35,259 nt of DNA from an uncultured Collinsella sp. Its GTDB lineage: Bacteria; Actinomycetota; Coriobacteriia; Coriobacteriales; Coriobacteriaceae. Position 1 is the stretch's first letter. Each line of letters starts with the position of its first letter. Made by a program: the position numbers and the translations under genes. The notes beneath the pieces are model-generated. The model was not told the DNA's origin. It worked only from the letters and a program-made list of their open reading frames with translations, and did no database searches. Below are positions 208-35,178 of the stretch, in pieces. The stretch is from the NCBI GenBank assembly GCA_938036665.1, contig CALHWR010000087.1, positions 1 through 35,259 of the forward strand. The letters run 5' to 3'.

Positions 208-238
208 ATGTGACAAAGGGACTGTCCCTTTGTCACAT
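208..238. repeat. 31-bp palindrome, family A (copy 1)
   Basis: ATGTGACAAAGGGAC, a central T, then GTCCCTTTGTCACAT: a perfect 15-bp inverted repeat around one central base. The same element recurs at 26327-26357, 27544-27575, 30095-30125 and 31320-31350. This copy lies 14 bases before the start of the dihydrouridine synthase gene, so it falls in that gene's 5' leader or promoter region. The other four copies sit at or near gene ends. Confidence 0.9.
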
Positions 239-252
239 TGATTTGAGAGTGG

Positions 253-1215
253 ATGTTGATGAATTTATCGCTGGCCCCTATGGAGGGGATTACCGGGCAT
301 GTGTTCCGTCGCGTGCATGCGGAGTGCTTTGGCGCACTCGATTGTTATTACACGCCGTTTTTGCCGCCGCCGCGGGTGGGCAACCGCTTTGGTGGCAAGG
401 CGTTTAAAGAGGTCGATCCTGCCAATAACCAGGGGCTTAACGTAGTACCTCAGCTGATGTCCAAGAATGCGGACGAGTTTGTGTGGGCGGCGCAGGTGCT
501 CGCCGAGATGGGGTACCGCGAGGTCAATCTCAACCTTGGCTGCCCCTCGGGTACGGTTGTTGCCAAAGGCAAGGGTTCGGGCTTTCTGCGCAACCTGGAT
601 GAGCTCGAGGTGTTCTTGAGCGACGTGTGCGAACGCTCACCCTTGCCGGTGTCGGTCAAGACCAGGCTGGGGTTGGAAAGCGATGACGAGTACGAACGCG
701 TGCTCGACCTCTATTGCCGCATGCCGCTGGCAGAGCTGATCGTGCATCCGCGCGTGCAAAAGGACCGTTATACGGGCTCGCCGCGTAAAGAGTTTTACGG
801 CGAGACGTTGGAGCGGGCGCCGTTTCCCGTGGCCTATAACGGCGACATCTTTGATCTTGAGGACATGGATGCGCTGGTGGGGGCCTATCCCGGAACACGC
901 CACGTAATGTTGGGGCGCGGCTTGCTCGCGAACCCCGCGCTGACTCGCATGGTTAAGGGCGGCCCTGCTGCCACGGCCGCTGAGCTGCAGCGCTTCCACG
1001 ACATGCTGTTTGCGGCCTATGCGGACGAGATTGGGGACAACGCGGTCTTTCGCATGAAGGAGTGGTGGTTCTACGCCAAATGCGCCTTCGCCGATCCCGC
1101 GACCGTTCACAAGCTCGTTCGCAAGACCAAAAAGGTCGATGAATACCGCGCTGCTGTCGAGCGCGTCTTTCGCGAGCAGCCGCTTGCGCCTGTTGCCCGC
1201 TTTTGTGGCTACTAG
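253..1215 (+). CDS. tRNA-dihydrouridine synthase
   Basis: A 320-residue Dus-family flavoenzyme, which reduces specific uridines in tRNA to dihydrouridine using FMN and NADPH in the cytoplasm. The family hallmarks are visible: an N-terminal LAPMEGIT, the active-site stretch NLNLGCPSG followed by KGKGSGFL (catalytic Cys about residue 97), an SVKTRLG strand, an HPR segment near residue 165 and a C-terminal MLGRGLLANP flavin-phosphate motif. Length is normal. Two ATGs compete: 253, and 259, where GAGAG at 245-249 is better spaced (9 bases) and the product would begin MNLSLAPMEG; 259 may be the true start. The stop TAG at 1213-1215 lies inside a palindromic repeat. Which tRNA position it modifies cannot be read from the sequence. 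Confidence 0.93.
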   Translation: MLMNLSLAPMEGITGHVFRRVHAECFGALDCYYTPFLPPPRVGNRFGGKAFKEVDPANNQGLNVVPQLMSKNADEFVWAAQVLAEMGYREVNLNLGCPSGTVVAKGKGSGFLRNLDELEVFLSDVCERSPLPVSVKTRLGLESDDEYERVLDLYCRMPLAELIVHPRVQKDRYTGSPRKEFYGETLERAPFPVAYNGDIFDLEDMDALVGAYPGTRHVMLGRGLLANPALTRMVKGGPAATAAELQRFHDMLFAAYADEIGDNAVFRMKEWWFYAKCAFADPATVHKLVRKTKKVDEYRAAVERVFREQPLAPVARFCGY

Positions 1216-4718: not shown

Positions 4719-4739
4719 GGGGCGCTCGATTCGAGTGCT

Positions 4740-4782
4740 GCCCCATGCGCCCACGCCGTCAAAATGCGTGGGCGCATGGGGC
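4740..4782. terminator. Strong hairpin between convergent genes
   Basis: A perfect 17-bp stem (4740-4756 with 4766-4782; arm GCCCCATGCGCCCACGC) closes a 9-base loop between the MalY-like gene and the convergent PPOX gene. There is no T-run, so it is not a textbook intrinsic terminator, but it may stop or protect transcripts from both sides. Confidence 0.55.
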
Positions 4783-4814
4783 GCAGAGGGTAGCGAGCGC
4801 GTTTTCCGCATTCG

Positions 4815-10750: not shown

Positions 10751-10845
10751 TACGGTGGCGCACGCCGGGGACATGCCGTTTGCCATGGATTTGCGGATGG
10801 GCGATTGCGACCGATTGCGGCCCGCGTGGGTCGAGATTTGCTTGC

Positions 10846-11544
10846 CTACAGGTCGCGTGCCCGATAGACCTTGGTGCTGACGGTGCAGCTGATTGCACAT
10901 AGCGTGAGGGCCAGTACGGCAATTCCTGCGCACAGGCAGCCGAGGACGGCGGGATCGGGATTCGCCCCAGCAATCGACATGAGCCAGTTGCTGATGGGGT
11001 TGGAGGAGCTCAGCGTGGCCATGGCAAGGCATCCGAGCAGGGCAAACAGGCCGACGGAAAGGCGCAGCGCCTCCATGTGTCCAAATCGAAAGAACAGCGG
11101 CTGTGCCAGAAACACCATCATGAGGGAGATGAGCATCGATGCGGCGGAGGCTATTGTGGTCTCAAAGACGATCTGTCCCGTCGAGGGCATGCCCGTGTGA
11201 TCGAAGAACGGAAGAGTGATGGTGCTCAAAAGCACGGTCGCGCACGCCATGATGGCCGAGAAGGCAACAATGCAGAGGTAACGTGCGCAGATGATGTCTT
11301 TGCGCGAGAGGGGCAGCGTTGCCCGATAGCGCTCCCATCCGTTTTGATTGTCGTAGCCGGCCAGCGAGCTCATGACCACGATGGGCGACATGGCACTGAC
11401 CGCGCAGGCGCCGGCGCTCATACTGGCATCGCCATCCGATGCGTTGGCGAGGGTTAGTACGACGAAGATGAACAGGCCGACGCCCGCGATGCTCGGGACA
11501 AGCGTGCGGACGATGGCGAGCTCAGACATAAAGGCGCGTTTCAT
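10846..11544 (-). CDS. ABC-2 type transporter permease
   Basis: A 232-residue integral membrane protein with about six hydrophobic segments, resembling the ABC2_membrane_5 type permeases that pair with YtrA-regulated ATPases. The central cytosolic segment NQNGWERYRATLPLSRKDIICARYL (about residues 66-90) is characteristic of this permease group. Its ATG overlaps the stop of the ATPase gene as ATGA (11541-11544), implying translational coupling. The substrate is unknown; relatives act in cell-envelope stress or antimicrobial peptide export. It is the third gene of the GntR-ATPase-permease operon. Confidence 0.85.
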   Translation of the reverse strand: MKRAFMSELAIVRTLVPSIAGVGLFIFVVLTLANASDGDASMSAGACAVSAMSPIVVMSSLAGYDNQNGWERYRATLPLSRKDIICARYLCIVAFSAIMACATVLLSTITLPFFDHTGMPSTGQIVFETTIASAASMLISLMMVFLAQPLFFRFGHMEALRLSVGLFALLGCLAMATLSSSNPISNWLMSIAGANPDPAVLGCLCAGIAVLALTLCAISCTVSTKVYRARDL

Positions 11545-12882: not shown

Positions 12883-13036
12883 TATGTACAGTTACGCAAG
12901 AGACAAATTCGGATTGGGCCGGCTACCCAGGCCCCAACTGATGAATTTGTCCTGATAGGTGCCCTATGGCGGGATTTCGCGGCTACAATAGTACGGTTAC
13001 AACGACGTAATGCACTCAATGCAAGAAAGGATCCGC

Positions 13037-23533: not shown

Positions 23534-24022
23534 ATGATCAGAAAAACCCTCGATACCGACATTCCCGCCGTCATGGCTATCTATGACGCGGCCCGCGCCT
23601 TTATGCGCGCGCATGGCAACGCCACGCAGTGGCCCGAGGGCACGCCTTCGGCCGAGCAGCTGGCTGCCGATATTGCCGCTGGTGGCAGTTACGTGTGCGA
23701 AGTCGACGGCCGCGTGGTGGCGACGTTTGCCTTTTTACCGGGTCCGGACGAGTGCTATGACGTGATTGAGGACGGTCAATGGCGCAGCGACACTCCGTAT
23801 GCCGTGCTGCATCGCGTGGCATCCGACGGCACCGTGCACGGTATCGCGGCGGCGATGTTTGCCTTTGCCAAGGAATGCGCCGACCATCTGCGTATTGACA
23901 CGCACGAGGACAACTTGCCCATGCAGGGCGCCATCGCCAAGGCGGGGTTCGAGCGTGTCGGTATCGTCTATGTGTCCGACGGCACGGCGCGTGTCGCGTT
24001 TGATTGGCTGCGCGAGGCGTAG
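23534..24022 (+). CDS. GNAT-family N-acetyltransferase
   Basis: A 162-residue acetyltransferase of the GNAT fold: N-terminal RKTLDTDIPAVMAIYDAARAFMR, central strands YVCEVDGRVVATFAFLPGP (about 55-73), the acetyl-CoA region AVLHRVASDGTVHGIAAAMFAFA (about 93-115; a relaxed form of the R/Q-x-x-G-x-G/A loop), and RIDTHEDNLPMQGAIAKAGFERVG. It transfers acetyl from acetyl-CoA to an unknown amine. GTG 23531 directly before the ATG is an alternative start; GAGGT lies upstream of both. A bidirectional terminator follows. Confidence 0.88.
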   Translation: MIRKTLDTDIPAVMAIYDAARAFMRAHGNATQWPEGTPSAEQLAADIAAGGSYVCEVDGRVVATFAFLPGPDECYDVIEDGQWRSDTPYAVLHRVASDGTVHGIAAAMFAFAKECADHLRIDTHEDNLPMQGAIAKAGFERVGIVYVSDGTARVAFDWLREA

Positions 24023-24056
24023 GAGCCAAGGCACGTATCATCACCCAGCTCAAATA

Positions 24057-24084
24057 AAAAATGGCCCCGAGTGTGGCCATTTTT
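24057..24084. terminator. Bidirectional intrinsic terminator after the GNAT gene
   Basis: AAAAATGGCC (24057-24066) pairs perfectly with GGCCATTTTT (24075-24084) around an 8-base loop. The A-run and T-run make it work in both directions: for the GNAT gene on the plus strand and for any minus-strand transcript that passes the candidate RNA at 24144. Confidence 0.85.
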
Positions 24085-24143
24085 GGTAAAACGCGTCGTT
24101 GTGGGACTCGCATTGTTACCGCCCCAGATGAACCCGGGCAGAC

Positions 24144-24253
24144 AAAAAGGGGAGGTGCCGGCTTTCGCAAGGCGCGAACCTACGAAAATCGCCGCGCGGC
24201 AACGCGGGGCGATGAGCTCGGTCGGGGGATAGGGCCCGCTTCGCCCACCGGCC
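24144..24253 (-). ncRNA. Candidate structured small RNA of about 110 nt
   Basis: The 306-bp gap 24023-24328 holds no protein-like frame on either strand but has the layout of a small RNA gene on the minus strand. The extended -10 TGATACAAT (24267-24259) would start RNA near 24253 with GGG. The transcript holds a strong hairpin (ATCGCC..CGCG arm around 24189-24215, 10 of 11 pairs, TTGC loop), a second small stem (TTCGC/GCGAA near 24164-24178) and a 3' CACC-TC-CCCC that can pair with 5' GGG-CC-GGTG, ending in TTTTT (24148-24144). I could not match it to SRP RNA (no GGAAG/GAGCAG apex), tmRNA, RNase P RNA, 6S or tRNA. Alternative: the plus strand is a leader controlling the TetM-like gene that starts at 24329. 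Confidence 0.35.
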
Positions 24254-24258
24254 CGTAA

Positions 24259-24267
24259 ATTGTATCA
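24259..24267 (-). promoter_or_regulatory. Extended -10 promoter facing away from the TetM-like gene
   Basis: On the minus strand TGATACAAT is an extended -10 (TGN plus TACAAT). A TTCACG-like -35 lies 15 bases further upstream, which is weak. No protein gene starts downstream on that strand before the terminator at 24084, which is why an RNA product is suggested. Confidence 0.45.
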
Positions 24268-24328
24268 TCCAGTGTGGAGCGTGAACGCCCGTTGCCGCGT
24301 GCGATGGGCTTGCAATAAGAGGAGAGCC

Positions 24329-26332
24329 ATGTCGAAGCAAGCGGTCGTTGGAATCTTGGCGCATGTCGATGCCGGCAAGACCACGTTGGCCGAGGCCATG
24401 CTGTTCAACGCGGGCCGCATTCGCAAGCGTGGCCGCGTGGACGATGGCGATTCGCATCTGGACACTAACACGATCGAGCGCGAGCGCGGTATCACGATTT
24501 TCTCGTCGCAGGCCGTGCTCGACCACGGCGATACCCACGTCATGCTCGTGGATGCTCCCGGCCATGTCGATTTTTCTGCCGAGGCGGAGCGCACACTGCG
24601 TGCCCTGGACTACGCGATTCTGGTGGTGGGCGCCAACGATGGCGTGCAGGGGCACACCGAAACCCTGTGGCGCCTGCTTGCACGCTATGACATCCCGACG
24701 TTCATCTTCATCAACAAGATCGATTTGGAGAATCCCGGCCGCGATGTTTTGCTGGCACAACTCGGGCAGCGTCTTTCCGAGGGCTGCCTGGATGCCAACG
24801 AGCTGCTGGCGGGCGCCGCCGTTCAGGAGGACGCTGCTGCGTTGGACGAAGCGGCGCTCGAGGAGTTTCTTGAAGCGGGTGAGCTTTCCGTCGCAACGCT
24901 GTCGCGTATGGTTGTTGAGCGCAAGCTCTTTCCCTGCTTTGCCGGTTCGGCGCTCAAGGATCAGGGCGTGGGCGAGCTGCTGGATGGTATGTGTACGCTG
25001 ATGCGTGAACAGACATGGCCCCCGGAGTTTGCCGCGCGTGTCTATCGTGTCAGCCGAGGCGTTCGCGGCGAGCGCTTGGCTTGGGTTAAAGTGACCGGCG
25101 GCACGCTGCGTTCAAAACAGATGATTGAGGGACGCTCCGGTGCCGAGGTATGGGAGCAGAAGGTCGATCAGGTACGCATCTATAACGGCGAGAAGTACGA
25201 GCTTGCCCAGGAAGTTGCTGCTGGCGGTATTTGTGCCGTGACGGGTCTTGCGCACGTTCGCCCGGGGGACGCCTTGGGTGCGGAGCCCGGGTGCGATGCA
25301 CCCGTCATTGCGCCGGTCCTCACCTATACGGTGCTACCGGGCGAACACGATGTCCATGCGGTGTTTCAAGCGCTGACCGAGTTGGCGGACGAAGACCCCA
25401 TGCTCGGCGTAAGCTGGAATACGCATCTTGAGCAGATTCATTTGCAGTTGATGGGCGCCGTGCAGCTCGAGGTCGTGCAGCGGGTGTTGGCCGATCGCTT
25501 TGGCCTTGCGGTCGAGTTTGAGCCCGGCGGCATCCTCTACAAGGAGACTATCTCGCAGCCGGTCGAGGGCGTGGGCCACTTTGAACCGCTGCGCCACTAT
25601 GCCGAGGTGCACCTGCGCTTGGAGCCGCTACCGGCGGGCTCGGGCGTGCAGTTTGGTACCGTTGCCTCGACCGACGAGCTCGACCTTAACTGGCAGCGTT
25701 TGGCGCTCACCAATGCCATGGAGCGCGACCACCTGGGCGTGCTGACCGGCTCGCCCATCACCGATGTGCGCATTACGCTCACGGGCGGCCGCGCGCATGC
25801 CAAGCATACCGAGGGCGGCGACTTTCGCCAGGCAACGTACCGCGCGATTCGCCAGGGCTTGATGCGGGCGCGCGAGGCCGGCACAGCCGTGCTGTTGGAG
25901 CCGTGGTACCACTTTGAGCTCGAGGTGCCGGGGGAGTGCGTGGGCAGGGCGCTCTCGGACGTCACGCGCATGGGCGCCGAGTACGAGCCGCCGGCAATGG
26001 CGGGCGACCGGGCGAAGCTCGTGGGTCGCGTACCGGCATCCGAGGTACAGGATTACGCGCTGGAGGTGGCTGCCTACACGAGCGGCCGCGGGCATTTGTA
26101 CCTTGAGTTTGCCGGTTATGCGGCTTGCCATGATGCCGAGCGCGTAATCGAGACGGCCGCCTATGAGCCCGAGGCCGATCTGCCCAACACGCCCGATTCG
26201 GTCTTTTGCTCTCACGGCGCCGGCTATACCGTCAAGTGGTACGACGTACCCGCCGCGGCGCACGTAAAGATCGATCCCGCCACCTTCCGCCCCTATCGCC
26301 CCGCCGACGCGGAATTTTTCGGCCACATGTGA
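24329..26332 (+). CDS. TetM-like translational GTPase (ribosomal protection family)
   Basis: A 667-residue EF-G-like GTPase of the TetM/TetO/TetW group. G1 is AHVDAGKTT (11-19), then TIERERGITIFSSQ (switch I), DAPGHVDFSAEAERTL (G3) and INKIDLENPG (G4, NKID). The EF-G-like domains III-V follow, with GAVQLEVVQRVLADRFGL and a long C-terminus. Length is close to TetM (639). Ribosomal protection proteins release tetracycline from the ribosome, but the domain IV/V tips differ from classical Tet proteins (for example EPWYHFELEVPGECVGRALSDVT), so it may be a chromosomal relative without resistance. The start is ATG 24329 with GAGGAG upstream. Its stop TGA (26330-26332) lies within a family A palindrome, the last codon ATG included. 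Confidence 0.85.
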   Translation: MSKQAVVGILAHVDAGKTTLAEAMLFNAGRIRKRGRVDDGDSHLDTNTIERERGITIFSSQAVLDHGDTHVMLVDAPGHVDFSAEAERTLRALDYAILVVGANDGVQGHTETLWRLLARYDIPTFIFINKIDLENPGRDVLLAQLGQRLSEGCLDANELLAGAAVQEDAAALDEAALEEFLEAGELSVATLSRMVVERKLFPCFAGSALKDQGVGELLDGMCTLMREQTWPPEFAARVYRVSRGVRGERLAWVKVTGGTLRSKQMIEGRSGAEVWEQKVDQVRIYNGEKYELAQEVAAGGICAVTGLAHVRPGDALGAEPGCDAPVIAPVLTYTVLPGEHDVHAVFQALTELADEDPMLGVSWNTHLEQIHLQLMGAVQLEVVQRVLADRFGLAVEFEPGGILYKETISQPVEGVGHFEPLRHYAEVHLRLEPLPAGSGVQFGTVASTDELDLNWQRLALTNAMERDHLGVLTGSPITDVRITLTGGRAHAKHTEGGDFRQATYRAIRQGLMRAREAGTAVLLEPWYHFELEVPGECVGRALSDVTRMGAEYEPPAMAGDRAKLVGRVPASEVQDYALEVAAYTSGRGHLYLEFAGYAACHDAERVIETAAYEPEADLPNTPDSVFCSHGAGYTVKWYDVPAAAHVKIDPATFRPYRPADAEFFGHM

Positions 26333-26357
26333 CAAAGGGACAGCTCCTTTGTCACAT
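26327..26357. repeat. 31-bp palindrome, family A (copy 2), supplying a stop codon
   Basis: ATGTGACAAAGGGACAGC then TCCTTTGTCACAT; the centre reads GCTCC where other copies have GTCCC. The ATG-TGA at its left end encodes the last Met and the stop of the TetM-like gene. It marks the left border of the ATPase/UvrA-like/ATPase block. Confidence 0.88.
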
Positions 26358-26360
26358 TCA

Positions 26361-26392
26361 GTTGGTATAACTCGGTATAAGTTGGTATAACT
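26361..26392 (+). promoter_or_regulatory. Three 10-bp iterated repeats before AAA ATPase 1
   Basis: GTTGGTATAA, CTCGGTATAA and GTTGGTATAA follow one another without gap (26361-26390), so GGTATAA recurs every 10 bp, one helical turn. The last TATAAC (26386-26391) can be a -10 with TTGGTA (26362-26367) as -35, 18 bases apart. Repeats phased to the helix suggest a binding site for a regulator, possibly the ATPase itself through its C-terminal winged helix. Confidence 0.5.
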
Positions 26393-26425
26393 ATTGCTAG
26401 CCTTTGCCAATCCGAGGAGGCCGAC

Positions 26426-27544
26426 ATGAATCCAAATCCCTTTAAGCCAACGGCTGGTAAGCGGCCTCCGATACTCATCGGTCGCGAGTCGGTCATCGAA
26501 GATTTTGAGGAGGGGTTCGACAACGGTGCCGGAGCGCCGGGCAGACTCATGCTCATTACAGGAAACCGCGGCTGTGGCAAAACAGTTCTCCTGCGGGAGC
26601 TGCAACGTCTGGCCAGTGAGCGCGGATGGGCGGTTGTCTCCGATTCCGCTTCGCTTGGTTTATGCGACCGCTTGGCCGACGCACTCCGCTCGAATAAGCC
26701 CGTTGTGACGTCAATGGAGTTTGGCCCATCGTTTGGACGGATGTCGGTTGAGGCGGCGCGGGCAAAAGGCGAGACGTTGCGAGGGCTGGTCAACGAACGT
26801 CTCAAGAAACTCGGCCCAAGCAAGGGTATTCTGTTTGCGATTGACGAGGCTCAATCTGCGTCTATCGAGGAACTGGCGACTCTCGCCGTTCTCTATCAGC
26901 AGGTGCTCGGAGATCAGGATGCCACGGGCTTGCCCGATAGCGACCAGCGAGGTCTTGCGTTGGTCTTTGCCGGCTTGCCCAGTATGGTTGACGATCTGCT
27001 CGAAGAGCCGAGCGTGACGTTTTTGCGACGTGCCCAGCAGCGTACGTTGGGGACGATTTCTTTGCCCCAGGTGCGCGATTCATATATCCAGACGGTCGAA
27101 TGTGCTGGTCTTTGCATTGATGCGGGGACGGCGGACCTTGCGGCGCACAAGAGCATGGGACATCCCTATATGGTTCAGCTGGTGGGATATTACATGTGGC
27201 GGTCTGCTGTCCGGCGTGGCTCGCAGGTCATTGAAGAGTGCGATGTCGAGGATGGCCATGCGGATGCCGTCTCCGAGTTCTACGAAGCGGTTGACGCACC
27301 TCTGTATTACGGGCTGCGCACCCCACAGCGCCTCTTTATCGAGGCTATGGCGGTTGATGAGGGCAAGCCGACGCGCATGGCAGATATCATTGAGCGCTGC
27401 GACCGTACCCAGAGCTGGGCGAGTAAATATCGCGCAAGCCTGATTCGCGAGCGCGTCATCGAGGCTGCCGGATACGGCCTCGTCCGGTTTAGCGTGCCCA
27501 TGCTGGGCAAGTATATTCGCGATCGCATTTTATGGCACGAGTAA
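26426..27544 (+). CDS. AAA-type ATPase with C-terminal winged-helix-like domain (paralogue 1)
   Basis: A 372-residue ATPase. Walker A GNRGCGKT (46-53), Walker B ILFAIDEAQS (135-144), a sensor-like LVFAGLPSMV (179-188), then FLRRAQQRTLG (199-209) and HPYMVQLVGYYMW, followed by a C-terminal helix-turn-helix-like region (TRMADIIERCDRTQSWASKYRASLI). The same blocks occur in the same order and spacing in the gene at 30133-31233, so the two are paralogues. The layout resembles Orc1/Cdc6-like or STAND-related archaeal-type ATPases of unknown role. GAGGAGG precedes the ATG. Its TAA stop abuts a family A palindrome. A regulator, DNA-handling or defence role is possible but not shown. Confidence 0.8.
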   Translation: MNPNPFKPTAGKRPPILIGRESVIEDFEEGFDNGAGAPGRLMLITGNRGCGKTVLLRELQRLASERGWAVVSDSASLGLCDRLADALRSNKPVVTSMEFGPSFGRMSVEAARAKGETLRGLVNERLKKLGPSKGILFAIDEAQSASIEELATLAVLYQQVLGDQDATGLPDSDQRGLALVFAGLPSMVDDLLEEPSVTFLRRAQQRTLGTISLPQVRDSYIQTVECAGLCIDAGTADLAAHKSMGHPYMVQLVGYYMWRSAVRRGSQVIEECDVEDGHADAVSEFYEAVDAPLYYGLRTPQRLFIEAMAVDEGKPTRMADIIERCDRTQSWASKYRASLIRERVIEAAGYGLVRFSVPMLGKYIRDRILWHE

Positions 27545-27575
27545 TGTGACATGAGGGACTGTCCCTTTGTCACAT
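27544..27575. repeat. Family A palindrome (copy 3), at the ATPase 1 stop
   Basis: ATGTGACATGAGGGACTG then TCCCTTTGTCACAT. The left arm has CATGAGGG where other copies have CAAAGGG, so it is a slightly decayed copy. Its first A is the last base of the ATPase 1 TAA stop. It separates ATPase 1 from the UvrA-like gene. Confidence 0.88.
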
Positions 27576-27597
27576 TCGATCAATAGGAAGGGGAGCG

Positions 27598-30090
27598 ATG
27601 GCGGTGTCGCAACAACCAAGCGCTATCGAGGTGCGTGGCGCGCGTGTCCATAACCTTAAGGACATCGATATCGATATTCCGCTGGGAAAGCTGGTGGGTA
27701 TTGCCGGCGTGTCGGGCTCGGGCAAGAGCTCGCTGGCGCTGGGTGTTTTGTATGCCGAGGGCTCGCGCCGTTACCTGGAGGCGCTCAGCACCTATACCCG
27801 CCGTCGGCTGACGCAGGCAGAGCACGCTCAGGTGGACGAGGTGCTGCACGTGCCGGCGGCACTCGCATTGCATCAGCGCCCCAGTGTACCGGGCGTGCGC
27901 TCGACTTTTGGCACCATGACCGAGCTCAACAACAGTCTGCGTCTGCTCTTTAGCCGCTGCGCCCATCACGTGTGCCCGCATTGCGGGGCGCGTGTGGAGC
28001 CGAGCCTTAACGTGGCCGCGGGCCTGTCGCTCGCGTGCCCCGCATGCGGCCGCGAGTTCTATGCGCCGGGGGCCGAGGACCTTGCCTTTAACAGTGGCGG
28101 CGCGTGTCCTACCTGCGGAGGCACCGGCGTCATGCGCGAAGTGGACGAGGCGAGCCTGGTGCCCGACGAGTCAAAGACCATCAACGAGGGTGCGGTGCTT
28201 CCCTGGGGCACGCTGATGTGGGATCTGATGAAGCAGGTGGCCGGCGAGATGGGCGTGCGCACCGACGTGCCGTTTAGCCAGCTCACGCCTCAAGAGCGCG
28301 ACATCGTGTTCCATGGTCCGGCGGTTAAGAAGCACATTCTCTACGTTCCCAAAAATGGCGAGGGCGCCACGCCGCTCGACTTTACCTATTACAACGCCGT
28401 CTATACCGTCGAGAATGCGCTCGCCAAGGTTAAGGACGATAAGGGGCTTAAGCGCGTTGCGCGCTTTTTGCGCGAGGGACCGTGCCGCGATTGCGGAGGC
28501 ACGCGTCTTTCCGAGGCTGCGCGCCAGCCCCAGGTGCGCGGTATCAATCTGGCGCAGGCGGCGGCCATGACGCTGGGCGAGGCGATTGAGTGGGTGCGCG
28601 GAGTGCCCGCATCCTTGCCGACCGAGATGCAGCCCATGACGACGGATATCTGCGATTCGTTTTTGAGCACGGCCCGTCGCCTGGTCGATCTGGGTCTCGA
28701 CTACCTTTCGCTCGACCGCGCCGGCGCCACGCTTTCCACGGGTGAGCGCCAGCGCGTACAGCTTGCCCGCGTGGTGCGCAACCGATCGACGGGCGTGCTG
28801 TATGTGCTGGACGAGCCTTCGATCGGCTTGCATCCTGCCAATGTCGACGGCTTGGTGGGCGTGATGCGCGATCTGGTGGTCGACGGCAATACCGTGGTTG
28901 TTGTCGACCACGACACGCGCGTGCTGGCAGAAGCCGACTATCTGGTCGAGATGGGCCCCGTTGCGGGAGCAGGCGGCGGCCATGTAATCGCCGCCGGTAC
29001 GGTAGACGAGGTCGAACAATCGCAGGGCAGCCGCATCGCGCCGTTCTTGCGCTCGGACCCCAAGCGTCTGCGCCCGCAGGTGGCTGACGACGAAATGTTC
29101 GACCTAGGCCATATCCGCATGGCGACCGATGCCATCCATACCGTCAAACCGCTCGAAGTCGATATCCCGCGTGGCCGCCTTGTCGCGGTGACGGGTGTTT
29201 CGGGTTCGGGCAAGACGACGTTGGTGCTCGAGACGCTCATCCCGGCGCTCAAGGCACAGGCAGCCGGTGAGCGCCTGCCAAGGCACGTGCGTTGGGTCGA
29301 TGCCGAGGGCATCGCGCGCGCCAACCTGATTGACGCCACGCCCATCGGCGCCAACGTGCGCTCGACGGTAGCGACCTATGCCGACATCCATGATGAGCTG
29401 CGCCGCGCCTTCGCCCGTACGCCCGAGGCCAAGGCGGCAGGATATAAAGCGGGTGCCTTTAGCTACAACACTGGCACCTTGCGCTGTCCTACGTGCGATG
29501 GCACGGGCTCGATATCGCTCGACGTGCAGTTTTTGCCCGATGTCGAGATTGTCTGTCCTGCATGTCGCGGCTCGCGTTATGCAGACGCGGCTTCGCATAT
29601 TCATCGCGAGGGCAGGGACGGGAGCCTGCTCACATTGCCGCAACTTATGGATATGAGCGTGGATGAGGCCCTCGACGCGACCGTCGGACTCAAGAAGGTT
29701 CAGGTGTGTTTACAGACCTTGCACGACCTGGGCTTGGGTTATCTCACGCTTGGTGAGCCCACGCCGGCGCTTTCGGGCGGTGAGGCGCAACGCCTTAAGC
29801 TTGCGAGCGAGATGGGCCGCGTGCAGGACGATGCCGTATTCGTATTCGACGAGCCCACGATCGGCCTGCATCCGCTCGATGTTCAGGTGCTGCTGAGCGT
29901 GTTTGATGGCCTCGTTGCCAAGGGCGCCACGGTTATCGTGATCGAACACGACCTCGACCTTATCCGTAACGCCGATTACGTGATCGACATGGGCCCGGGC
30001 GGCGGTGACGCAGGCGGAAAAATCGTCTGCACCGGCACGCCGGATGACACTGCGGCCTGCTCCGCAAGCGTCACTGGCCGCTACCTCTAG
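27598..30090 (+). CDS. UvrA-like ABC ATPase (UvrA2/DrrC type)
   Basis: An 830-residue protein with two UvrA-type ABC modules. Module 1 has Walker A GVSGSGKSS (37-45), zinc-type CPHC/CPAC and CPTCGGTG pairs, a signature LSTGERQRVQLAR and Walker B YVLDEPSIGLHP. Module 2 has GVSGSGKTT, a zinc loop CPTCDGTG to CPACRGSRY, LSGGEAQRLKLA and VFDEPTIGLHP. At 830 residues it is shorter than UvrA (about 940), and a UvrB-binding insert is not evident, which fits the UvrA2/DrrC group linked to tolerance of DNA-damaging drugs rather than core excision repair. GGAAGGGGAG precedes ATG 27598. Family A palindromes lie 22 bases before its start and four after its stop. It is bracketed by the two ATPase paralogues. 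Confidence 0.88.
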   Translation: MAVSQQPSAIEVRGARVHNLKDIDIDIPLGKLVGIAGVSGSGKSSLALGVLYAEGSRRYLEALSTYTRRRLTQAEHAQVDEVLHVPAALALHQRPSVPGVRSTFGTMTELNNSLRLLFSRCAHHVCPHCGARVEPSLNVAAGLSLACPACGREFYAPGAEDLAFNSGGACPTCGGTGVMREVDEASLVPDESKTINEGAVLPWGTLMWDLMKQVAGEMGVRTDVPFSQLTPQERDIVFHGPAVKKHILYVPKNGEGATPLDFTYYNAVYTVENALAKVKDDKGLKRVARFLREGPCRDCGGTRLSEAARQPQVRGINLAQAAAMTLGEAIEWVRGVPASLPTEMQPMTTDICDSFLSTARRLVDLGLDYLSLDRAGATLSTGERQRVQLARVVRNRSTGVLYVLDEPSIGLHPANVDGLVGVMRDLVVDGNTVVVVDHDTRVLAEADYLVEMGPVAGAGGGHVIAAGTVDEVEQSQGSRIAPFLRSDPKRLRPQVADDEMFDLGHIRMATDAIHTVKPLEVDIPRGRLVAVTGVSGSGKTTLVLETLIPALKAQAAGERLPRHVRWVDAEGIARANLIDATPIGANVRSTVATYADIHDELRRAFARTPEAKAAGYKAGAFSYNTGTLRCPTCDGTGSISLDVQFLPDVEIVCPACRGSRYADAASHIHREGRDGSLLTLPQLMDMSVDEALDATVGLKKVQVCLQTLHDLGLGYLTLGEPTPALSGGEAQRLKLASEMGRVQDDAVFVFDEPTIGLHPLDVQVLLSVFDGLVAKGATVIVIEHDLDLIRNADYVIDMGPGGGDAGGKIVCTGTPDDTAACSASVTGRYL

Positions 30091-30094
30091 CAGA

Positions 30095-30125
30095 ATGTGA
30101 CAAAGGGACAGTCCCTTTGTCACAT
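30095..30125. repeat. Family A palindrome (copy 4), between convergent genes
   Basis: A perfect 31-bp copy (ATGTGACAAAGGGAC, A, GTCCCTTTGTCACAT). It lies four bases after the UvrA-like stop (TAG) and seven bases from the stop of the convergent ATPase 2 gene, so it fills nearly all of the 42-bp gap. Confidence 0.9.
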
Positions 30126-30132
30126 CCGATGC

Positions 30133-31233
30133 CTATTTCACGCATTGAGCGGCGAGATAGTCGCGGAAGAACGGTAATTCAAAAGCGACGATTCCGCGCC
30201 CGCGTTCTCCAATGATGCCGGCGTCTATCATGCGGCGTCGGTAGCGGGAGACCTGTTGCGGCGAACGCTTAAGGCGCTCGACAAGGTCAGCGGTGGTGGA
30301 CTCTTCTTCGTCATCGAGCATGGCGATGAGAAATCGCTTGTCCTCCGCAGTGAGTTCCCGATAGGTCGCTGCGAGGATCCGGTCGTCCATTTCATCGCGT
30401 GCGATTTTGATTCCCTGGTCAAAGTCGCGAGATGATATTTCCCTCGAGTTGCTCGTGAGATCCCAGGCGCGGTAACCCACAAGCTGCAAAAGGAAAGGAA
30501 AGCCCGAAATCGAGCGAACGGCCTTATCGATTCCCTCGGCATCCGCCAGACGGTCGTTTTCCTGGATCGTTCGGATCAAGGCCTCGCGTACATCGTAGTC
30601 GGCGATACGCCCCAGATGATATTGCTGGGCGCGACGAAGGAACGAGACCGTCTTGTGGTTCAGCAACGTCGAGACGTTGTTGGGAAGTCCCGCCATGAGT
30701 AGGGCGACGCGTTTCCCATCGGTCACAAAGTGCTGATACGTGGCTGCGAGCTGGATCATCTCGTCGAGCGTCGGGTCGACCTCATCAACCGTGACGAGTA
30801 GACCGGTGCCCGTTTCGTTGAGCTGGTCGATGATGTCGCTCATGCGATAACGCCAAGTCGAGGCATCGTGAACGCGATTGACCTCGATACTGCCGAGCGG
30901 CGCGATTCCGAGACCGGTGACTTCGAAGTTGTTAGACGGGCTGATGAGATGGCCTGCAGCACGTTTCGCCCCGAGCTCGATTTCCTCAAGCATTCCCGAG
31001 AGCGCGGTCGTCTTTACCGCTATCCAGCCGTGGGATTCCGCCCTTGTTGCGAGCGACGACATGAGAGCGGTTTTACCGGTTCCACGCGCGCCTGAGAAGA
31101 TCGAGGTCAATTCCGGGCGTCTACGCTGGCTCAAGAAGGCACGGTCCAAATCCCGAATAATCTGTTGTCTGCCGGCGAGATGGGCAGGAACCTCACCAAA
31201 ACTGGGGGTAAACGGGTTCTCGAGATATTCCAC
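30133..31233 (-). CDS. AAA-type ATPase with C-terminal winged-helix-like domain (paralogue 2)
   Basis: A 366-residue ATPase. Walker A GARGTGKT (48-55), Walker B LLVTVDEVD (145-153), LLMAGLPNNV (178-187), FLRRAQQYHLG (198-208), FPFLLQLVGYRAW and a C-terminal helix-turn-helix (TTADLVERLKRSPQQVSRYRRRMIDAG). Every block matches ATPase 1 (26426-27544) in order and almost to the residue in position, so the two derive from one ancestor, yet sequence outside the blocks is quite different. The start is GTG 31233, with AAAGGAG eight bases upstream. Two 10-bp phased repeats precede it, as with ATPase 1. The C-terminal end DYLAAQCVK is unremarkable. Function unknown. Confidence 0.82.
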   Translation of the reverse strand: MEYLENPFTPSFGEVPAHLAGRQQIIRDLDRAFLSQRRRPELTSIFSGARGTGKTALMSSLATRAESHGWIAVKTTALSGMLEEIELGAKRAAGHLISPSNNFEVTGLGIAPLGSIEVNRVHDASTWRYRMSDIIDQLNETGTGLLVTVDEVDPTLDEMIQLAATYQHFVTDGKRVALLMAGLPNNVSTLLNHKTVSFLRRAQQYHLGRIADYDVREALIRTIQENDRLADAEGIDKAVRSISGFPFLLQLVGYRAWDLTSNSREISSRDFDQGIKIARDEMDDRILAATYRELTAEDKRFLIAMLDDEEESTTADLVERLKRSPQQVSRYRRRMIDAGIIGERGRGIVAFELPFFRDYLAAQCVK

Positions 31234-31260
31234 AAGGCTCTCCTTTCACATCGCCGTTTA

Positions 31261-31290
31261 ACTCCATTTTATTCTAGTTAATTCTGATTA
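31261..31290 (-). promoter_or_regulatory. 10-bp phased repeats before AAA ATPase 2
   Basis: On the minus strand TAATCAGAAT, TAACTAGAAT and AAAATGGAGT follow one another (31290-31261). The first two share TAAYYAGAAT at 8 of 10 positions and the third is looser. The 10-bp phasing mirrors the iterons before ATPase 1, although the sequence differs. TTAATTCTGATTAA (31278-31291) is also a small dyad. AT-rich for this genome. Confidence 0.4.
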
Positions 31291-31319
31291 AAAGCGACGG
31301 CTCGTTATTTGGTGCATCA

Positions 31320-31350
31320 ATGTGACAAAGGGACAGTCCCTTTGTCACAT
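31320..31350. repeat. Family A palindrome (copy 5), supplying the TrmL stop
   Basis: A perfect 31-bp copy. On the minus strand its ATG-TGA (31350-31345) gives the last Met codon and the stop of the TrmL gene, exactly as copy 2 does for the TetM-like gene. It is the right border of the ATPase/UvrA-like/ATPase block. Confidence 0.9.
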
Positions 31351-31944
31351 GCCGGGGAAGCCTGTCTGGCGGAGGGCCTCGTAGAGGACGATGGCGGCGC
31401 TGTTGGAGAGGTTGAGGGCGCTGATGCGGTAGTCGTCCGGGTCTACAAAGTTGCCGCAGATATCCTGCCGAAGGATGGCCTCGTGGCTGTCCTCGGTATG
31501 CCCGAGCGATTCCTCGTGGGCTTCCCAGGCCTCGGCGTTGTCAAGCGAATCGCAATCGCGCAGCATCGGGATGCGCTCGCAGCGCTCGGGCGCCGCGGCA
31601 AGCAGTGGCTCGGGAATGCCCGAGCTCTCGCTGCCAAAGACCAAGTAGTCGCCATCGCGGTAGGCACTCTGCGCATAGGTGCGGCGCGCCTTTTTGGTCA
31701 GCAGATGTAGACGCTCGTCGACAGGGGAGAGGCCGTTGCGCGCAAGGAAATCCTCCCAGCCGGCATAGGTCGTCACGTCCAAGTTTTGCCAGTAGCCCAG
31801 GCCGGCGCGACGCACTGTCTTGTCGTCGAGCGAAAACCCCAGCGGCTCCACCAGATGCAGGCGGGTACCGGTAACCACGCAAGCGCGGCCGATATTGCCC
31901 GTATTGGCCGGAATCTCGGGCGCATACAGCACAATGTTGAACAT
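31345..31944 (-). CDS. trmL: TrmL-like tRNA (cytidine/uridine-34 2'-O)-methyltransferase with an insert
   Basis: A 199-residue SPOUT methyltransferase. Seen: PEIPANTGNIGR (9-20), LHLVEPLGFSLDDKTVRRAGLGYW (about 29-52), LVFGSESSGIPEPLL (about 101-115) and ISALNLSNSAAIVLYEALRQ (about 174-193), the knot motifs of TrmL, which 2'-O-methylates the wobble nucleotide of tRNA-Leu. E. coli TrmL has 157 residues; here about 40 extra residues (roughly 132-172, rich in Asp and Glu) lie between IPM and RISALNLSNS, where the family normally runs straight on. AAGGAG precedes ATG 31944. The stop is within the palindrome. Confidence 0.88.
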   Translation of the reverse strand: MFNIVLYAPEIPANTGNIGRACVVTGTRLHLVEPLGFSLDDKTVRRAGLGYWQNLDVTTYAGWEDFLARNGLSPVDERLHLLTKKARRTYAQSAYRDGDYLVFGSESSGIPEPLLAAAPERCERIPMLRDCDSLDNAEAWEAHEESLGHTEDSHEAILRQDICGNFVDPDDYRISALNLSNSAAIVLYEALRQTGFPGM

Positions 31945-31965
31945 GAATCTCCTTGGCTCAGAACG

Positions 31966-32000
31966 AAAAACCACCACGAAGGGCACCTTCGTGGTGGTTT
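31966..32000 (-). terminator. Intrinsic terminator of the CobW-like gene
   Basis: A perfect 15-bp stem (31968-31982 with 31986-32000, loop GCA) with arm AAACCACCACGAAGG. On the minus strand it is followed by TTTTT. It lies 40 bases past the stop of the CobW-like gene and upstream of trmL, isolating the two. Confidence 0.9.
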
Positions 32001-32039
32001 GGCGGTTACGTAGGCGGAAAAATACCCGCTTGGATAAAC

Positions 32040-33170
32040 CTAGGCGCGGTGCCAGTCGGTCAGGCAGGCATCGAGGGAGGCGATGAGCGCATCCTTGTCC
32101 ATGTGACGGCCGATGATGCACAGGCTCGTCATGCGGTCGCCCGTCTCGTCGTCCCAAATCTGCATGATTTCGGGGTTCTCGTCGATGATCTTCTGCTTCT
32201 CGCCCTCGGGCGCGGAATCGACAAACAGACCGTTCTCCATCAGGCGCATCTGGTGGCCGGCCTGCTCAAACATGTAGCACATGTCCGGATTGCCGGTCTG
32301 CCACAGCGGACCCTTGACGCGGATGACCTCGTCGGGCCACTCCTGCTCAACAAAATCGGTGAACTTCTGCAGGTCAAACGGCTTGCGGCGCGAGTACACA
32401 AAGGTCTCGATGTCGTACTCGAGCACCTCGGGGTCGTCGTGCTCCTCGGGATGCTCCATGGCCTCGATCCAAGCGGCGGAGTTGTAGGCGCGCATAAAGT
32501 CGAAGCGGTCGGTATCGAGCAGCTCCTCCATGGGGACCTCGCCGTTTTGGGCCTCGACGATCACGGCGTCTTTCTGCAGGCTGCGCACGATGGCCTTGAG
32601 CTCGGCGATCTGCTCAGGGCTCACGGTATCGGTCTTGTTGAGGATCAGCGTGGAGCAAAACTCGATCTGCTGGATGAGCAGGCTCTCGATGTCGTCCTCG
32701 TCGATATCCTCAGCCAGCAGGTCGCGGCCGCCGTTGAACTCGTCGTACATGCGGGCGCAGTCGACCACGGCCACGATGTTGTCGAGCGCGAGCTTGGGCT
32801 CGCCGCCCACCTTGGCCTCGTCGCAGAAGCTCGAGATGGTGTAGGCGATGGGGATAGGCTCGCAAATACCCGAGGCCTCGATGATGATGTAGTCGAACTT
32901 GCCCGAATCGGCGATGCCCTGCAGCTGGTTGGCCAGGTCGTCCGAAAGCGTGCAGCAGATGCAGCCGTTGGTGAGCGGGATGAGGTCGTCGGTCTCGGAA
33001 AGGCCGCCGTCGGCGATAAGGCTAGCGTCGACGTTGATCTCGCCGATATCGTTGACGATCACGGCGGCGCGGATGCCGCCGTCGTTGGCGAGGATGTGGT
33101 TGAGCAGCGTGGTCTTGCCGGCACCGAGGTAGCCGGTAAGCATGATGATCTTCACGGGTTTGTTGGGCAT
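32040..33170 (-). CDS. CobW/COG0523-family GTP-binding metallochaperone-like protein
   Basis: A 376-residue G3E GTPase. Walker A GYLGAGKTT (13-21), the metal-binding CxCC in NGCICCTLSDDL (C70, C72, C73), IIEASGICEP (about 95-104; the E-x-S-G motif) and NKTD (guanine specificity). A C-terminal CobW_C domain starts near IETFVYSRRKPFDL. COG0523 proteins insert or deliver zinc, cobalt or iron to client enzymes; the client here is unknown. AAAGGAGGG precedes ATG 33170, better than ATG 33191. An acidic loop (LLAEDIDEDDIE, EHPEEHDDPEV) is notable. It lies downstream of the ArsC-like gene, same strand, 86 bases away, with its own terminator. Confidence 0.9.
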   Translation of the reverse strand: MPNKPVKIIMLTGYLGAGKTTLLNHILANDGGIRAAVIVNDIGEINVDASLIADGGLSETDDLIPLTNGCICCTLSDDLANQLQGIADSGKFDYIIIEASGICEPIPIAYTISSFCDEAKVGGEPKLALDNIVAVVDCARMYDEFNGGRDLLAEDIDEDDIESLLIQQIEFCSTLILNKTDTVSPEQIAELKAIVRSLQKDAVIVEAQNGEVPMEELLDTDRFDFMRAYNSAAWIEAMEHPEEHDDPEVLEYDIETFVYSRRKPFDLQKFTDFVEQEWPDEVIRVKGPLWQTGNPDMCYMFEQAGHQMRLMENGLFVDSAPEGEKQKIIDENPEIMQIWDDETGDRMTSLCIIGRHMDKDALIASLDACLTDWHRA

Positions 33171-33256
33171 GTGCCCTCCTTTGTTAGACATGGCTTACAG
33201 TTGAATCTTATGCCAAACGCCTGCTCTTATACCCACGCGCCGACAAATAACACAGG

Positions 33257-33598
33257 CTACTCCCAGGCTCCCCATACATCAGGGCAATAACCGACGGTGG
33301 CCTTTTTGCCGTTGCGCACGATGGGCTCGGCCAGAACCTGCTGGTTCTCGAGTAGCTTGTCGAAGCGCTGGCTGGGGGTGAGGTGCTGGATGAGTGCGAG
33401 CGTCTCCTCGTCCTTAGCCTTGGGGTTGAGCAGCTTGTCGATGCCGCCGACCGCCTGCATCACGCTCGTGAGCTCGCCCTTGCTCATCTCCTTTTCCTTA
33501 AGGTCGATAAACTGCACCTTAATGCGGCGCTCCTTAAAATAGCGCTGGGCCTTCTTGGTGTCGAAGGACTTTTTGGTGCCGAAGATTTGCACGTTCAT
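33257..33598 (-). CDS. ArsC/Spx-like protein lacking the usual cysteine
   Basis: A 113-residue thioredoxin-fold protein of the ArsC/Spx-like family. The N-terminus MNVQIFGTKKSFDTKKAQRY matches relatives that read GTKKCFDTKKA, but here the position-11 cysteine is Ser (TCC instead of TGC or TGT). The only Cys is near the C-terminus (GYCPDVWG, about residue 105). The rest is regular: FKERRIKVQFIDLKEKEMSKGEL, TPSQRFDKLLENQQVLAEPIVRNGKKATVG. Loss of the cysteine suggests it is not an active reductase, or the change is recent. Its ribosome binding site is weak (GGCGGAAC). It is 17 bases downstream of the flavodoxin-like gene and probably in one operon. Confidence 0.82.
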   Translation of the reverse strand: MNVQIFGTKKSFDTKKAQRYFKERRIKVQFIDLKEKEMSKGELTSVMQAVGGIDKLLNPKAKDEETLALIQHLTPSQRFDKLLENQQVLAEPIVRNGKKATVGYCPDVWGAWE

Positions 33599-34239: not shown

Positions 34240-34311
34240 CACAAACTCCCTCTGCTGTCGGTGACTTCTGCAGAGGATTATCGCACGAGCGGGCAGATGG
34301 CGTGGGGCACG

Positions 34312-34452
34312 ATGCCGGCCCCGAGGGCCCACGGCAGGCACGCTTACCAGGTACGAGCGGGATACGGTCCAGAGGATGTTGGAGTGCGGGGCCTCGTGCG
34401 AGCAGATTGTAAGGGGTCTGGGCGGGTCGCCCTCGATGGCGAGCTTTGAGGC
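34312..34452 (+). pseudogene. Decayed N-terminus of an IS30-like transposase
   Basis: In the 334-bp gap before the DUF3784-like gene, two frames join to give MPAPRAHGR (ATG 34312) and, one frame over from about 34340, LTRYERDTVQRMLECGAS then CEQIVRGLGGSPSMASFE. This matches the start of IS30-family transposases, whose helix-turn-helix reads roughly RERD-x-I-x-x-ML-x-x-G-x-S-x-x-x-IA-x-x-LGRSPSTVSRE. The frame break near 34338-34348, the loss of the StvSRE residues (here SMASFE) and the absence of any catalytic part show it is a relic. No flanking inverted repeats were recognised. It marks the left edge of an AT-richer patch. Confidence 0.5.
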
Positions 34453-34573
34453 CTTGGAAGGCGGGCTGCTGCGGCGGCTATGGTTTATACTAAGGCGGTT
34501 GCTATCGAGTAATTCATACTTGGTTTGATTCGATTGTGAATGCGTAACTAGGATGGAAAGCAAAGGAAACTCT

Positions 34574-34894
34574 ATGGAAACAGAGGATGCTGTTTGCTTG
34601 ATGACTTCGATTGCCTTGATTGTCCTTTCAATCCAATACCGAAGAGGAAGATGGCTCTGCTCAATTGCTGGATACGATGTCACAAAAAGGGAGAGCGAGA
34701 TTGATATACGCCCTTACGCAAAGCTGATTTCTTCTGTGACGTTATGGATGGGGCTGCTGTTTTTCTTGTGGGCGGTAGAGGGCTGGGTACGCGATTGGAA
34801 TACCAGCGTTTTTGAAGTTTTGGTTCTACTTCTGTTCAGCTTGGCCTCTTTGTCGTTCGTGCGGCTCGTTAGGTTTGTGTTTATGAGGCGATAG
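34574..34894 (+). CDS. DUF3784-like small membrane protein
   Basis: A 106-residue protein with three hydrophobic segments (about 9-22, 51-67 and 76-96) around GRWLCSIAGYDVTKRESEIDIRPYAK, which has the W/L-I-A-GY-x-x-x-x-x-E layout of the DUF3784 family. Role unknown. The start chosen is ATG 34574, with AAAGGAA upstream; ATG 34553 is an alternative. Base composition is lower in GC than most of the window and codon use more AT-rich, with the IS30-like relic just before it, so it may be acquired DNA. Confidence 0.65.
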   Translation: METEDAVCLMTSIALIVLSIQYRRGRWLCSIAGYDVTKRESEIDIRPYAKLISSVTLWMGLLFFLWAVEGWVRDWNTSVFEVLVLLLFSLASLSFVRLVRFVFMRR

Positions 34895-35178
34895 CCAGCG
34901 GAAGTGGCTGGACGACAAAATGGACCAATGCAGCCAATTGTCAATAGAATTTGATAGGCTTGGCTTAACAGATTTACTCGAGGGCATATCCGTGGCGGGG
35001 GATAGGTTCTATCTTGTTGAGCATTTATTTGCATCAGGCAAAGTAAACCAAGAGTATCGAAACGGTGCCCCCGGGCCCCGGGAGGGACTGAGGGGACGTT
35101 CGGCTAACTGCGGGTACGACCTATTTGCCCAATGTGTTCGGTTGAGATCGGAAATTAACCATCATGCGCCCCATAACG
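34895..35178. other. Non-coding or decayed tail of the AT-rich patch
   Basis: An open frame from 34920 starts MDQCSQLSIEFDRLGLTD and runs as plausible protein for about 48 residues, then meets GC-rich GTGCCCCCGGGCCCCGGG at about 35066 and loses protein character. It has no ribosome binding site. It may be a truncated gene joined to unrelated sequence. The stretch 35070-35178 holds nothing I can identify, apart from a GGGACTGAGGGGACG reminiscent of the GGGAC repeats. Confidence 0.3.

Follow-up and report, generated by a model that had tools for sequence, protein, structure and literature searches.

Two systems of Neisseria, the minimal mobile elements (MME) and the dRS3 repeats, are the closest precedents for the arrangement reported here. 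In an MME, a conserved gene pair encloses differing whole-gene cassettes, which are described as moving solely by homologous recombination. The dRS3 repeat (ATTCCC N8 GGGAAT) is 20 bp long, has 6-bp inverted ends, numbers almost 700 copies and serves the Nf1 phage; identical copies have been proposed as the place where a whole gene, pilC1, was integrated or deleted (PMC3898611). Here we describe a short palindrome, termed family A, in a 35,259-nt stretch of DNA (the window) from an uncultured Collinsella sp. (GenBank assembly GCA_938036665.1, contig CALHWR010000087.1, positions 1 to 35,259). At three loci, genes lying between copies of this palindrome are present in some genomes and absent or swapped in others, and breakpoints of homology are enriched at the palindromes.

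The conserved gene pair with differing whole-gene cassettes, as known from MME, was observed at the UvrA/TrmL and ABC transporter/Dus gaps, between species-level genomes rather than strains. The difference is that here the same palindrome borders cargo at several unrelated sites. With regard to homologous recombination as the mode of movement, a duplicated UvrA 3' piece in one relative (G034) points to recombination in the flank, and the breakpoints at palindromes point to the repeat. Like dRS3 and the Neisseria intergenic mosaic elements (NIME), family A is a short intergenic repeat with inverted ends, but it is a nearly perfect palindrome of 29-31 bp, unrelated in sequence, with 5-16 close copies per genome and no known enzyme. 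Repetitive extragenic palindromes (REP) and bacterial interspersed mosaic elements (BIME) with REP-associated tyrosine transposases (RAYT) also consist of palindromes at gene 3' ends with paired stem changes, and in both cases Y1 transposase-like genes are found in the genomes. In contrast to these, the window copies have no GTAG/CGTC tag, the copy number is low, and no Y1 gene flanked by a family-A palindrome was found in the clade. The literature consulted also includes PMC3082526, PMC8266576, PMC3733652, PMC8040213 and PMC2911385. Collinsella is listed in PMC7771070 among the top ten genera in a set of transfer insertion sites, with palindromes as a learned feature; we saw no account of the present elements there. 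We found no description of the present palindromes or cassettes in the literature on Collinsella palindromes or REP within a coverage that excludes most subscription journals.

An integron unit consists of one gene with one hairpin site (attC) after the stop codon, and such units are exchangeable. The present case differs from this in that there is no array and the genes lie in both orientations; no integrase was seen in the annotated cargo, no dedicated integrase search having been made. To our knowledge, the family-A site is unlike attC.

Presence and absence of whole genes between palindromes

The palindromes of the window (which carry no strand) and the genes required for the comparison are as follows.

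208..238: family-A palindrome, perfect 15-nt arms and a 1-nt centre; at an ABC-transporter/Dus site with differing cargoes in relatives
26327..26357: family-A palindrome, two mismatches in the core; between the EF-G-like gene and ATPase 1
27544..27575: family-A palindrome, 32 nt, one (left) arm with an extra base and mismatches; between ATPase 1 and the UvrA-like gene
30095..30125: perfect family-A palindrome that borders the ATPase 2 cassette on the left; the gene ends on its two sides converge
31320..31350: perfect family-A palindrome that borders the ATPase 2 cassette on the right
30133..31233, minus strand: ATPase 2, paralogue of ATPase 1; cassette gene present in 14/22 relatives and absent in 8
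31345..32157, minus strand: TrmL-like SpoU methylase open reading frame (ORF); conserved right flank, stop codon inside the 31320 palindrome
253..1215, plus strand: tRNA-dihydrouridine synthase (Dus); conserved right flank of the 208 site

With P denoting the family-A palindrome, the order in the block is EF-G-like (+), P, ATPase 1 (+), P, UvrA-like (+), P, ATPase 2 (-), P, TrmL-like (-), NEXT (-). The first-pass annotation had divided this 5-kb block into three one-gene units between palindromes (ATPase 1 +, UvrA-like +, ATPase 2 -), with palindrome positions and gene strands that agree with ours. Its statement that every border carries the same palindrome is right for the four positions, although the 27544 copy, at 32 nt, is less perfect than implied. 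The copy at 208, which it took as the only other one, is indeed the sole other close copy, but a sixth copy of the 19-nt core lies at 96-124 with different outer arms.

The orthologous block locus was compared across all 22 palindrome-bearing Collinsella species, two loci being cut by contig ends. We denote the flanking genes on the left and right as A and C, so that A-P-C is a site with no cargo. All 14 species with ATPase 2 have P on the UvrA side of the gene, and 11 of the 14 have P also on its TrmL side; in G002 and G034 extra cargo precedes P and TrmL, and in G031 the contig ends. A single P and nothing else separates UvrA and TrmL in 5 of the 22 species (G001, G003, G004, G019, G033). 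The gap is occupied by P, a serine-recombinase island and P in two species (G018, G035), and Pfam confirmed a resolvase (PF00239) and a DUF4230 protein in the island of G018. The remaining arrangement, a diverged hairpin with a repeat of about 80 bp, was observed in one species (G021). In the eight genomes without ATPase 2 at the locus, the best relative elsewhere in the genome is just 48% identical, which indicates that ATPase 2 is wholly absent from them. The first-pass annotation had raised the question whether single units appear or vanish between palindromes in related genomes, and this was found to be so at this locus and at two others.

ATPase 2 is 87-92% identical in nucleotide sequence among species, equal to the neighbouring genes. 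This divergence and the scattered presence fit an old cassette that may have been lost or exchanged many times over. A duplicated UvrA 3' piece in G034 (L248 11914-12090) lies directly before P and TrmL and points to recombination inside the flank gene. The piece is preceded by what appears by eye to be the end of an ATPase-1-type gene. A terminator-like hairpin lies between TrmL and NEXT (31968-32000), with GGGACAG in the loop in some relatives, and G018 has a 1.4-kb insert exactly at this hairpin.

Two further loci with cargo between palindromes

The 208 site lies between an ABC transporter gene (FtsX type) and Dus, and its cargo differs among the relatives. Five genomes (G003, G008, G018, G024, G026) have A-P-C. 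The site in G001 is A-P-membrane protein-P-C, and G019 has the same gene with only the right-hand P. In G002, G004 and G006, a transporter, a TetR gene, a gene of the peptidyl-arginine-deiminase family and further frames stand between two P, and in G021 P is located on either side of the transporter. G005, G010 and G007 have other content with no P called. Nine listed copies share a nearly identical left flank (...CGAATA followed by P), and divergence starts right after P.

At the third locus, 21 clade genomes were matched, the right flank lying outside the fetched locus in nine. A DUF4143 AAA ATPase lies between two P in G003 and G019, and the ATPase with a left P was found in G006 and G021. 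Another hairpin followed by the right P, with no ATPase, was observed in G001, G008, G012, G031 and G035, whereas G005, G010 and G024 have the left P and then a different hairpin.

Other hairpins and variable gaps were also noticed. Two more large hairpins occur right after Dus (1212-1339); one of them, of a second family (1280-1334), borders cargo on both sides in G001, so that this habit is not unique to family A. The window-wide survey of insertions and deletions was a comparison with 13 syntenic segments. At 4709-4816 the window is without about 3.2 kb present in 11 of the 13 syntenic relatives, and a 43-nt hairpin is found at 4740-4782. About 850 bp at 34296-35178, where no palindrome was called, is present in the window and G003 and missing in 9 of the 13 segments, the remaining three ending earlier. 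The palindrome at G003:709993 was considered as a clean insertion site and was set aside, as the region itself is repeat-rich and uninformative. Near exact palindromes of Atopobiaceae lies an aldo-keto reductase/LysR pair similar to genes that G007 has at the 208 site. As the nucleotide identity is 70-77% and adjacency to the palindrome is not shared, the pair was not used as evidence of co-transfer from Atopobiaceae.

Enrichment of breakpoints at palindromes

For the switching test, 400-bp flanks were grouped by homology, and groups seen at least 2 times were scored for at least 2 partners. Partners were switched across palindromes in 20 of 56 flank groups, compared with 0/88, 2/91, 3/85 and 3/71 at points shifted by 600-1200 bp. 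Among gene 3' ends with no palindrome within 250 bp, switching was detected in 44/257 groups (odds ratio 2.7, Fisher p = 0.003), and the same palindrome-free control with longer ORFs gave 29/189 (Fisher p = 0.002). These counts and the gene-end control cover loci up to L257, and genes across loci were called as longest ORFs, antisense frames included. Counted by site, more than one flank pairing was found at 11 of the 23 palindrome sites seen at least 2 times, on the basis of 162 deduplicated palindrome instances with the window's 27544 copy counted twice. Breakpoints are enriched at the palindromes, not confined to them. The cassette idea of the first-pass annotation is thus supported, since units vanish or are swapped between palindromes at three loci and breakpoints are likelier there than at other gene ends.

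Clustering, folding and distribution of the palindrome

Four of the five window palindromes match a 29-nt pattern with at most 3 mismatches, whereas the mean in 100 dinucleotide shuffles was 0. In the 5-kb block, 4 palindromes were observed against 0.04 expected (Poisson 1.4e-7), the expected density being taken from the complete genome of a relative, G003, with 20 copies in 2.306 Mb; both counts allow at most 3 mismatches to the 19-nt core. Since close copies number just 5-16 per bearing relative, four in 5 kb represent clustering rather than background. The 20 copies of G003 are themselves clustered: 7 neighbour gaps are shorter than 10 kb against a random mean of 1.6, a value reached by 0.05% of draws. 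Folded as DNA hairpins, the three perfect copies gave -14.3 kcal/mol each (z -7.1 to -7.6), and the imperfect copies at 26327 and 27544 gave -11.2 and -9.9 kcal/mol, respectively.

With at most 2 mismatches, the palindrome was detected in 22 of 43 Collinsella genomes at 5-16 copies each, and the reversed control gave 0 matches. Across the family it was present in 22 of 65 genomes, all 22 within Collinsella, and was not found, at the same threshold, in 22 sampled genomes of other genera of this family. From the high identity of ATPase 1 to its counterparts in 22 congeners (given below) we infer that the window genome belongs to the Collinsella aerofaciens complex. Palindromes scattered over thousands of gene ends, which in the first-pass annotation would have made the block a coincidence, were not seen, each bearing congener having 5-16 close copies. 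Beyond the genus, exact copies occur in Olsenella, Thermophilibacter, one Atopobiaceae metagenome-assembled genome (MAG) and one Clostridia MAG (8/63 stretches). The Atopobiaceae loci with the exact palindrome are L155, L164, L168, L169, L170, L182 and L204. Such a disjoint distribution, with Atopobiaceae positive and other genera of the own family negative, hints at transfer. A viral origin was considered and set aside, as 0 exact copies were found in IMG/VR viral contigs.

A wider superfamily has the centre GGGACNGTCCC and differing arms. Its core gave 188 stemmed matches in 1.29 Mb compared with 0-2 for five control cores, in a sample of loci mostly chosen for bearing the palindrome, so that the number is no genome-wide rate. 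The centre, or a sequence near it, was seen with very different arms at L040, L045, L047, L060, L119-L121, L155, L164, L168 and L204, which are loci of congeners and Atopobiaceae. An oddity of the superfamily is that the tip stays fixed while the arms diversify. At one fixed site, a recognisable palindrome is retained in 22/22 species, several of which have paired changes in both arms; judging from these changes, it seems that the hairpin itself is maintained.

History of the block

The outer palindromes of the block overlap its neighbours: the EF-G-like gene has its stop codon (26330-26332) inside the left one, and the TrmL-like gene has its own (31345-31347) inside the right one. The outer palindromes belong to the neighbouring genes as much as to the block. 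In the window and the 13 species whose copy is clear, the EF-G-like gene has its stop codon within the palindrome; in the outgroup G013 it ends at its own TAA. The TrmL-like gene has its own stop codon, without a palindrome, in 10/10 outgroup species; in the window and in most species of the clade the palindrome contains this stop. The exceptions are G018, G021 and G032, which have a repeat of about 80 bp in between. In G013, the EF-G-like, UvrA and NEXT genes adjoin with gaps of about 100 bp, without a palindrome and without ATPase 1 or 2, and TrmL is located elsewhere. Because the outgroup backbone is contiguous and its genes have their own stop codons, the palindromes and ATPases look like later additions to an older EF-G-like/UvrA/NEXT backbone.

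The gap between ATPase 1 and UvrA contains one palindrome in the window and none in 21/22 relatives; in G003 it contains P, a gene for a GNAT acetyltransferase (191 aa) and P. The palindrome-free gap (L096-L117) reads GGTGATAAAGGTGAC, which resembles the left half of the palindrome and may be a remnant. In the gap between the EF-G-like gene and ATPase 1 (26327 site), 13 of 21 relatives have a clear palindrome, 7 a diverged relative of it and 1 a displaced one.

The proteins encoded in the block

The remaining genes of the block and its left neighbour are the following.

24260..26332, plus strand: EF-G-like gene, resembles ribosomal-protection proteins, below family cut-offs; stop codon inside the 26327 palindrome
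26426..27544, plus strand: ATPase 1, AAA+ ATPase (AAA_16) with a C-terminal winged helix; in 22/22 clade species, absent from outgroup G013
27598..30090, plus strand: class II UvrA-like gene (UvrA2/Ecm16 type), without a UvrB-binding domain

That the two ATPases are paralogues, as proposed in the first-pass annotation, was verified by an alignment with 31% identity over 372 positions (E = 1e-48), in which the AGLP, FLRRAQQ and QLVGY motifs are aligned. Both are AAA+ proteins. The matched part of ATPase 1 is 92-95% identical in 22 congeners. Its predicted structure (mean predicted local distance difference test score, pLDDT, 85.6) had RuvB first by E-value in Foldseek, and the best TM-scores among the matches listed were 0.65 for an archaeal Walker-type ATPase (2qen) and 0.62 for ORC2 (1w5t); this comparison of a modelled fold assigns a class, not a function.

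In the UvrA-like protein, residues 134-146 align where UvrA 2r6f has residues 148-269, so the UvrB-binding domain is predicted to be absent; 2vf7 and 7sh1 were among the structure matches. Class II UvrA proteins, which have no UvrB-binding domain, include UvrA2 and the self-resistance protein Ecm16 (PMC10192343). The UvrA-like protein is thus similar by sequence to UvrA2, DrrC and Ecm16 in the absent domain, but we noticed no antibiotic biosynthesis genes beside it. Proteins of this type occur in 34/43 genomes of the genus, with at least 71% identity over the first 301 residues. The EF-G-like gene was found in 21/22 clade loci, the remaining locus being cut by a contig end. Its best matches are tetracycline ribosomal-protection models (417.6 bits against a cut-off of 775), and it may be a paralogue with a housekeeping role and not a resistance gene.

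Evaluation of the explanations

We favour the explanation that a low-copy REP-like hairpin at gene 3' ends is the junction where whole-gene cassettes are gained, swapped and lost, with a probability of roughly 0.6. The element would be defined by the conserved centre, variable arms, a location at gene 3' ends and its occurrence in the C. aerofaciens complex. A-P-C in one species would correspond to A-P-gene-P-C in another, and the palindrome would be the point where homology breaks off. Loss may proceed by recombination or replication slippage between the two palindromes, which repeat each other in direct as well as inverted orientation. Gain may occur when imported DNA recombines, the homology being long at one end, within a flank gene, and short at the other, where the palindrome is shared. 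The three block genes would then be independent passengers in the EF-G-like, UvrA and NEXT backbone.

Several observations weigh against this explanation. The 44/257 palindrome-free gene ends switch partners as well, and content varies in gaps without a family-A palindrome (10750-10847, 12908-12937, 22051, 34296-35178 and others). Only one flank pairing was found at 12 of the 23 palindrome sites, one of these across 18 instances, and the 26327 gap holds P without any cargo change. The switching counts are not independent events, and most loci were chosen for carrying P. Arm sequences often differ between the left and the right P of a cassette, which hence are not plain target duplications. An empty ATPase 2 site with A joined to C and no P was not found within the 22-species clade. 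The states of ATPase 2 are scattered on a star-like tree, which makes gains inseparable from losses, and the gene is as diverged as its neighbours. The third locus is less clean, because its empty forms are not simple A-P-C; a second hairpin adjoins P.

Hairpins that serve as bidirectional terminators or in mRNA protection might simply mark gene ends, the only places where insertions are tolerated, with no causal link to the palindrome. This is in line with the position of the palindromes: of 241 gene ends nearby, 159 are no more than about 15 nt from one, against 3/27 to 11/42 at shifted points, and 104 of 198 copies sit between convergent ORF ends. The pairing preserved by paired changes in several species, the variation at palindrome-free gene ends and the other hairpin families at some variable gaps agree with it as well. 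However, the stem has no T-run, and a terminator scan of 24000-33500 called the 31968 hairpin and none of the four palindromes there; an intrinsic terminator would have a GC-rich stem followed by a T run. A hairpin at the RNA level was examined by wobble bias and set aside, as there was no clear strand bias (G-U/A-C mismatches of 29/20 in tandem and 44/46 in convergent settings); an Rfam search of the same 24000-33500 region gave one chance snoRNA match below cut-off. Furthermore, partners switch roughly twice as often at P as at other gene ends, the palindrome stands on both borders of differing cargoes at more than one site, and close copies are just 5-16 per genome. We therefore regard this explanation as unlikely. 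It is very improbable that the palindromes are integron-like or dRS3/phage-integrase-like sites of a site-specific recombinase, possibly the serine resolvase of G018 and G035. A serine recombinase is indeed present between P in these two species and after ATPase 2 in G002 and G034, and one palindrome per gene end resembles the anatomy of integron cassettes. In contrast, the site holds no such recombinase in 18/22 species, among them G031, whose contig breaks at this point, the genes face both directions, and the annotated cargo showed no integrase, no dedicated or genome-wide integrase search having been made. The crossover of serine recombinases is an even one of 2 nt, to which an odd-length palindrome with a 1-nt centre is unfit.

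A REP-transposase-like HUH enzyme (Y1_Tnp, RAYT-like) might cut single-stranded hairpins and move the palindromes together with the intervening genes, which would be a form of the palindrome-mobilising enzyme considered in the first-pass annotation. Y1_Tnp proteins are present in 22/22 palindrome-bearing genomes and 15/21 others (Fisher p = 0.009), palindrome DNA folds into a strong hairpin, and palindromes with the superfamily core and other arms were found near Y1 genes in 3/22 short loci (L045, L047, L060), in species without a family-A palindrome. The co-occurrence is, however, confounded by descent, some Y1 matches are ordinary IS200 transposases, and the core palindrome was found in 0/10 longer clade Y1 loci (0 in 87 kb). 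One clade protein matches REP_Tyr_transpos, but at 54.5 bits it is below the model cut-off of 80. By inspection, neither foot of the five window copies has a GTAG or CGTC tag, and the copy number is low. Such an enzyme is thus quite improbable. The first-pass annotation had also proposed that ATPase 1, UvrA and ATPase 2 act jointly as a stress or anti-mobile-element module, in which case the palindromes would border it incidentally. The genes are co-located in the window and in 14/22 relatives, both ATPases end in a winged-helix-type region, and the UvrA-like protein partially matches the MADS components mad3 (232 bits) and mad8 (94 bits) in PADLOC. Co-occurrence was confirmed for ATPase 1 with UvrA (22/22) but not for ATPase 2, which is missing from 8/22, and UvrA (91%) stands without either ATPase in G013. 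ATPase-family matches, up to seven per genome, include paralogues at other loci, and the ATPases gave at most weak P-loop matches to defence models in the PADLOC scan. The three genes are not conserved as a set, as would be expected of an anti-phage defence module; the UvrA-like protein alone matches mad3 and mad8, no search for other MADS genes having been made. The module is therefore extremely improbable, and the three genes look like passengers that travel separately and not like parts of a joint machine.

Significance

A bolder possibility, which we consider distinctly unlikely, is an array-free cassette system in which single genes are inserted and excised by a dedicated enzyme; one example would be a Y1/HUH protein that works in trans on hairpins of single-stranded DNA with the GGGACNGTCCC tip. 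If this were true, the species complex would share a pool of palindrome-ended genes, as with integrons but at dispersed chromosomal sites, and the palindrome arms would diversify while the tip stays fixed.

C. aerofaciens is among the commoner human gut actinobacteria. If the palindrome is a junction for whole-gene cassettes, as we favour, a recognisable border word would permit cassettes to be mined directly from genomes, and the exchange of single genes, rather than large islands, at fixed chromosomal spots would become testable in a commensal.

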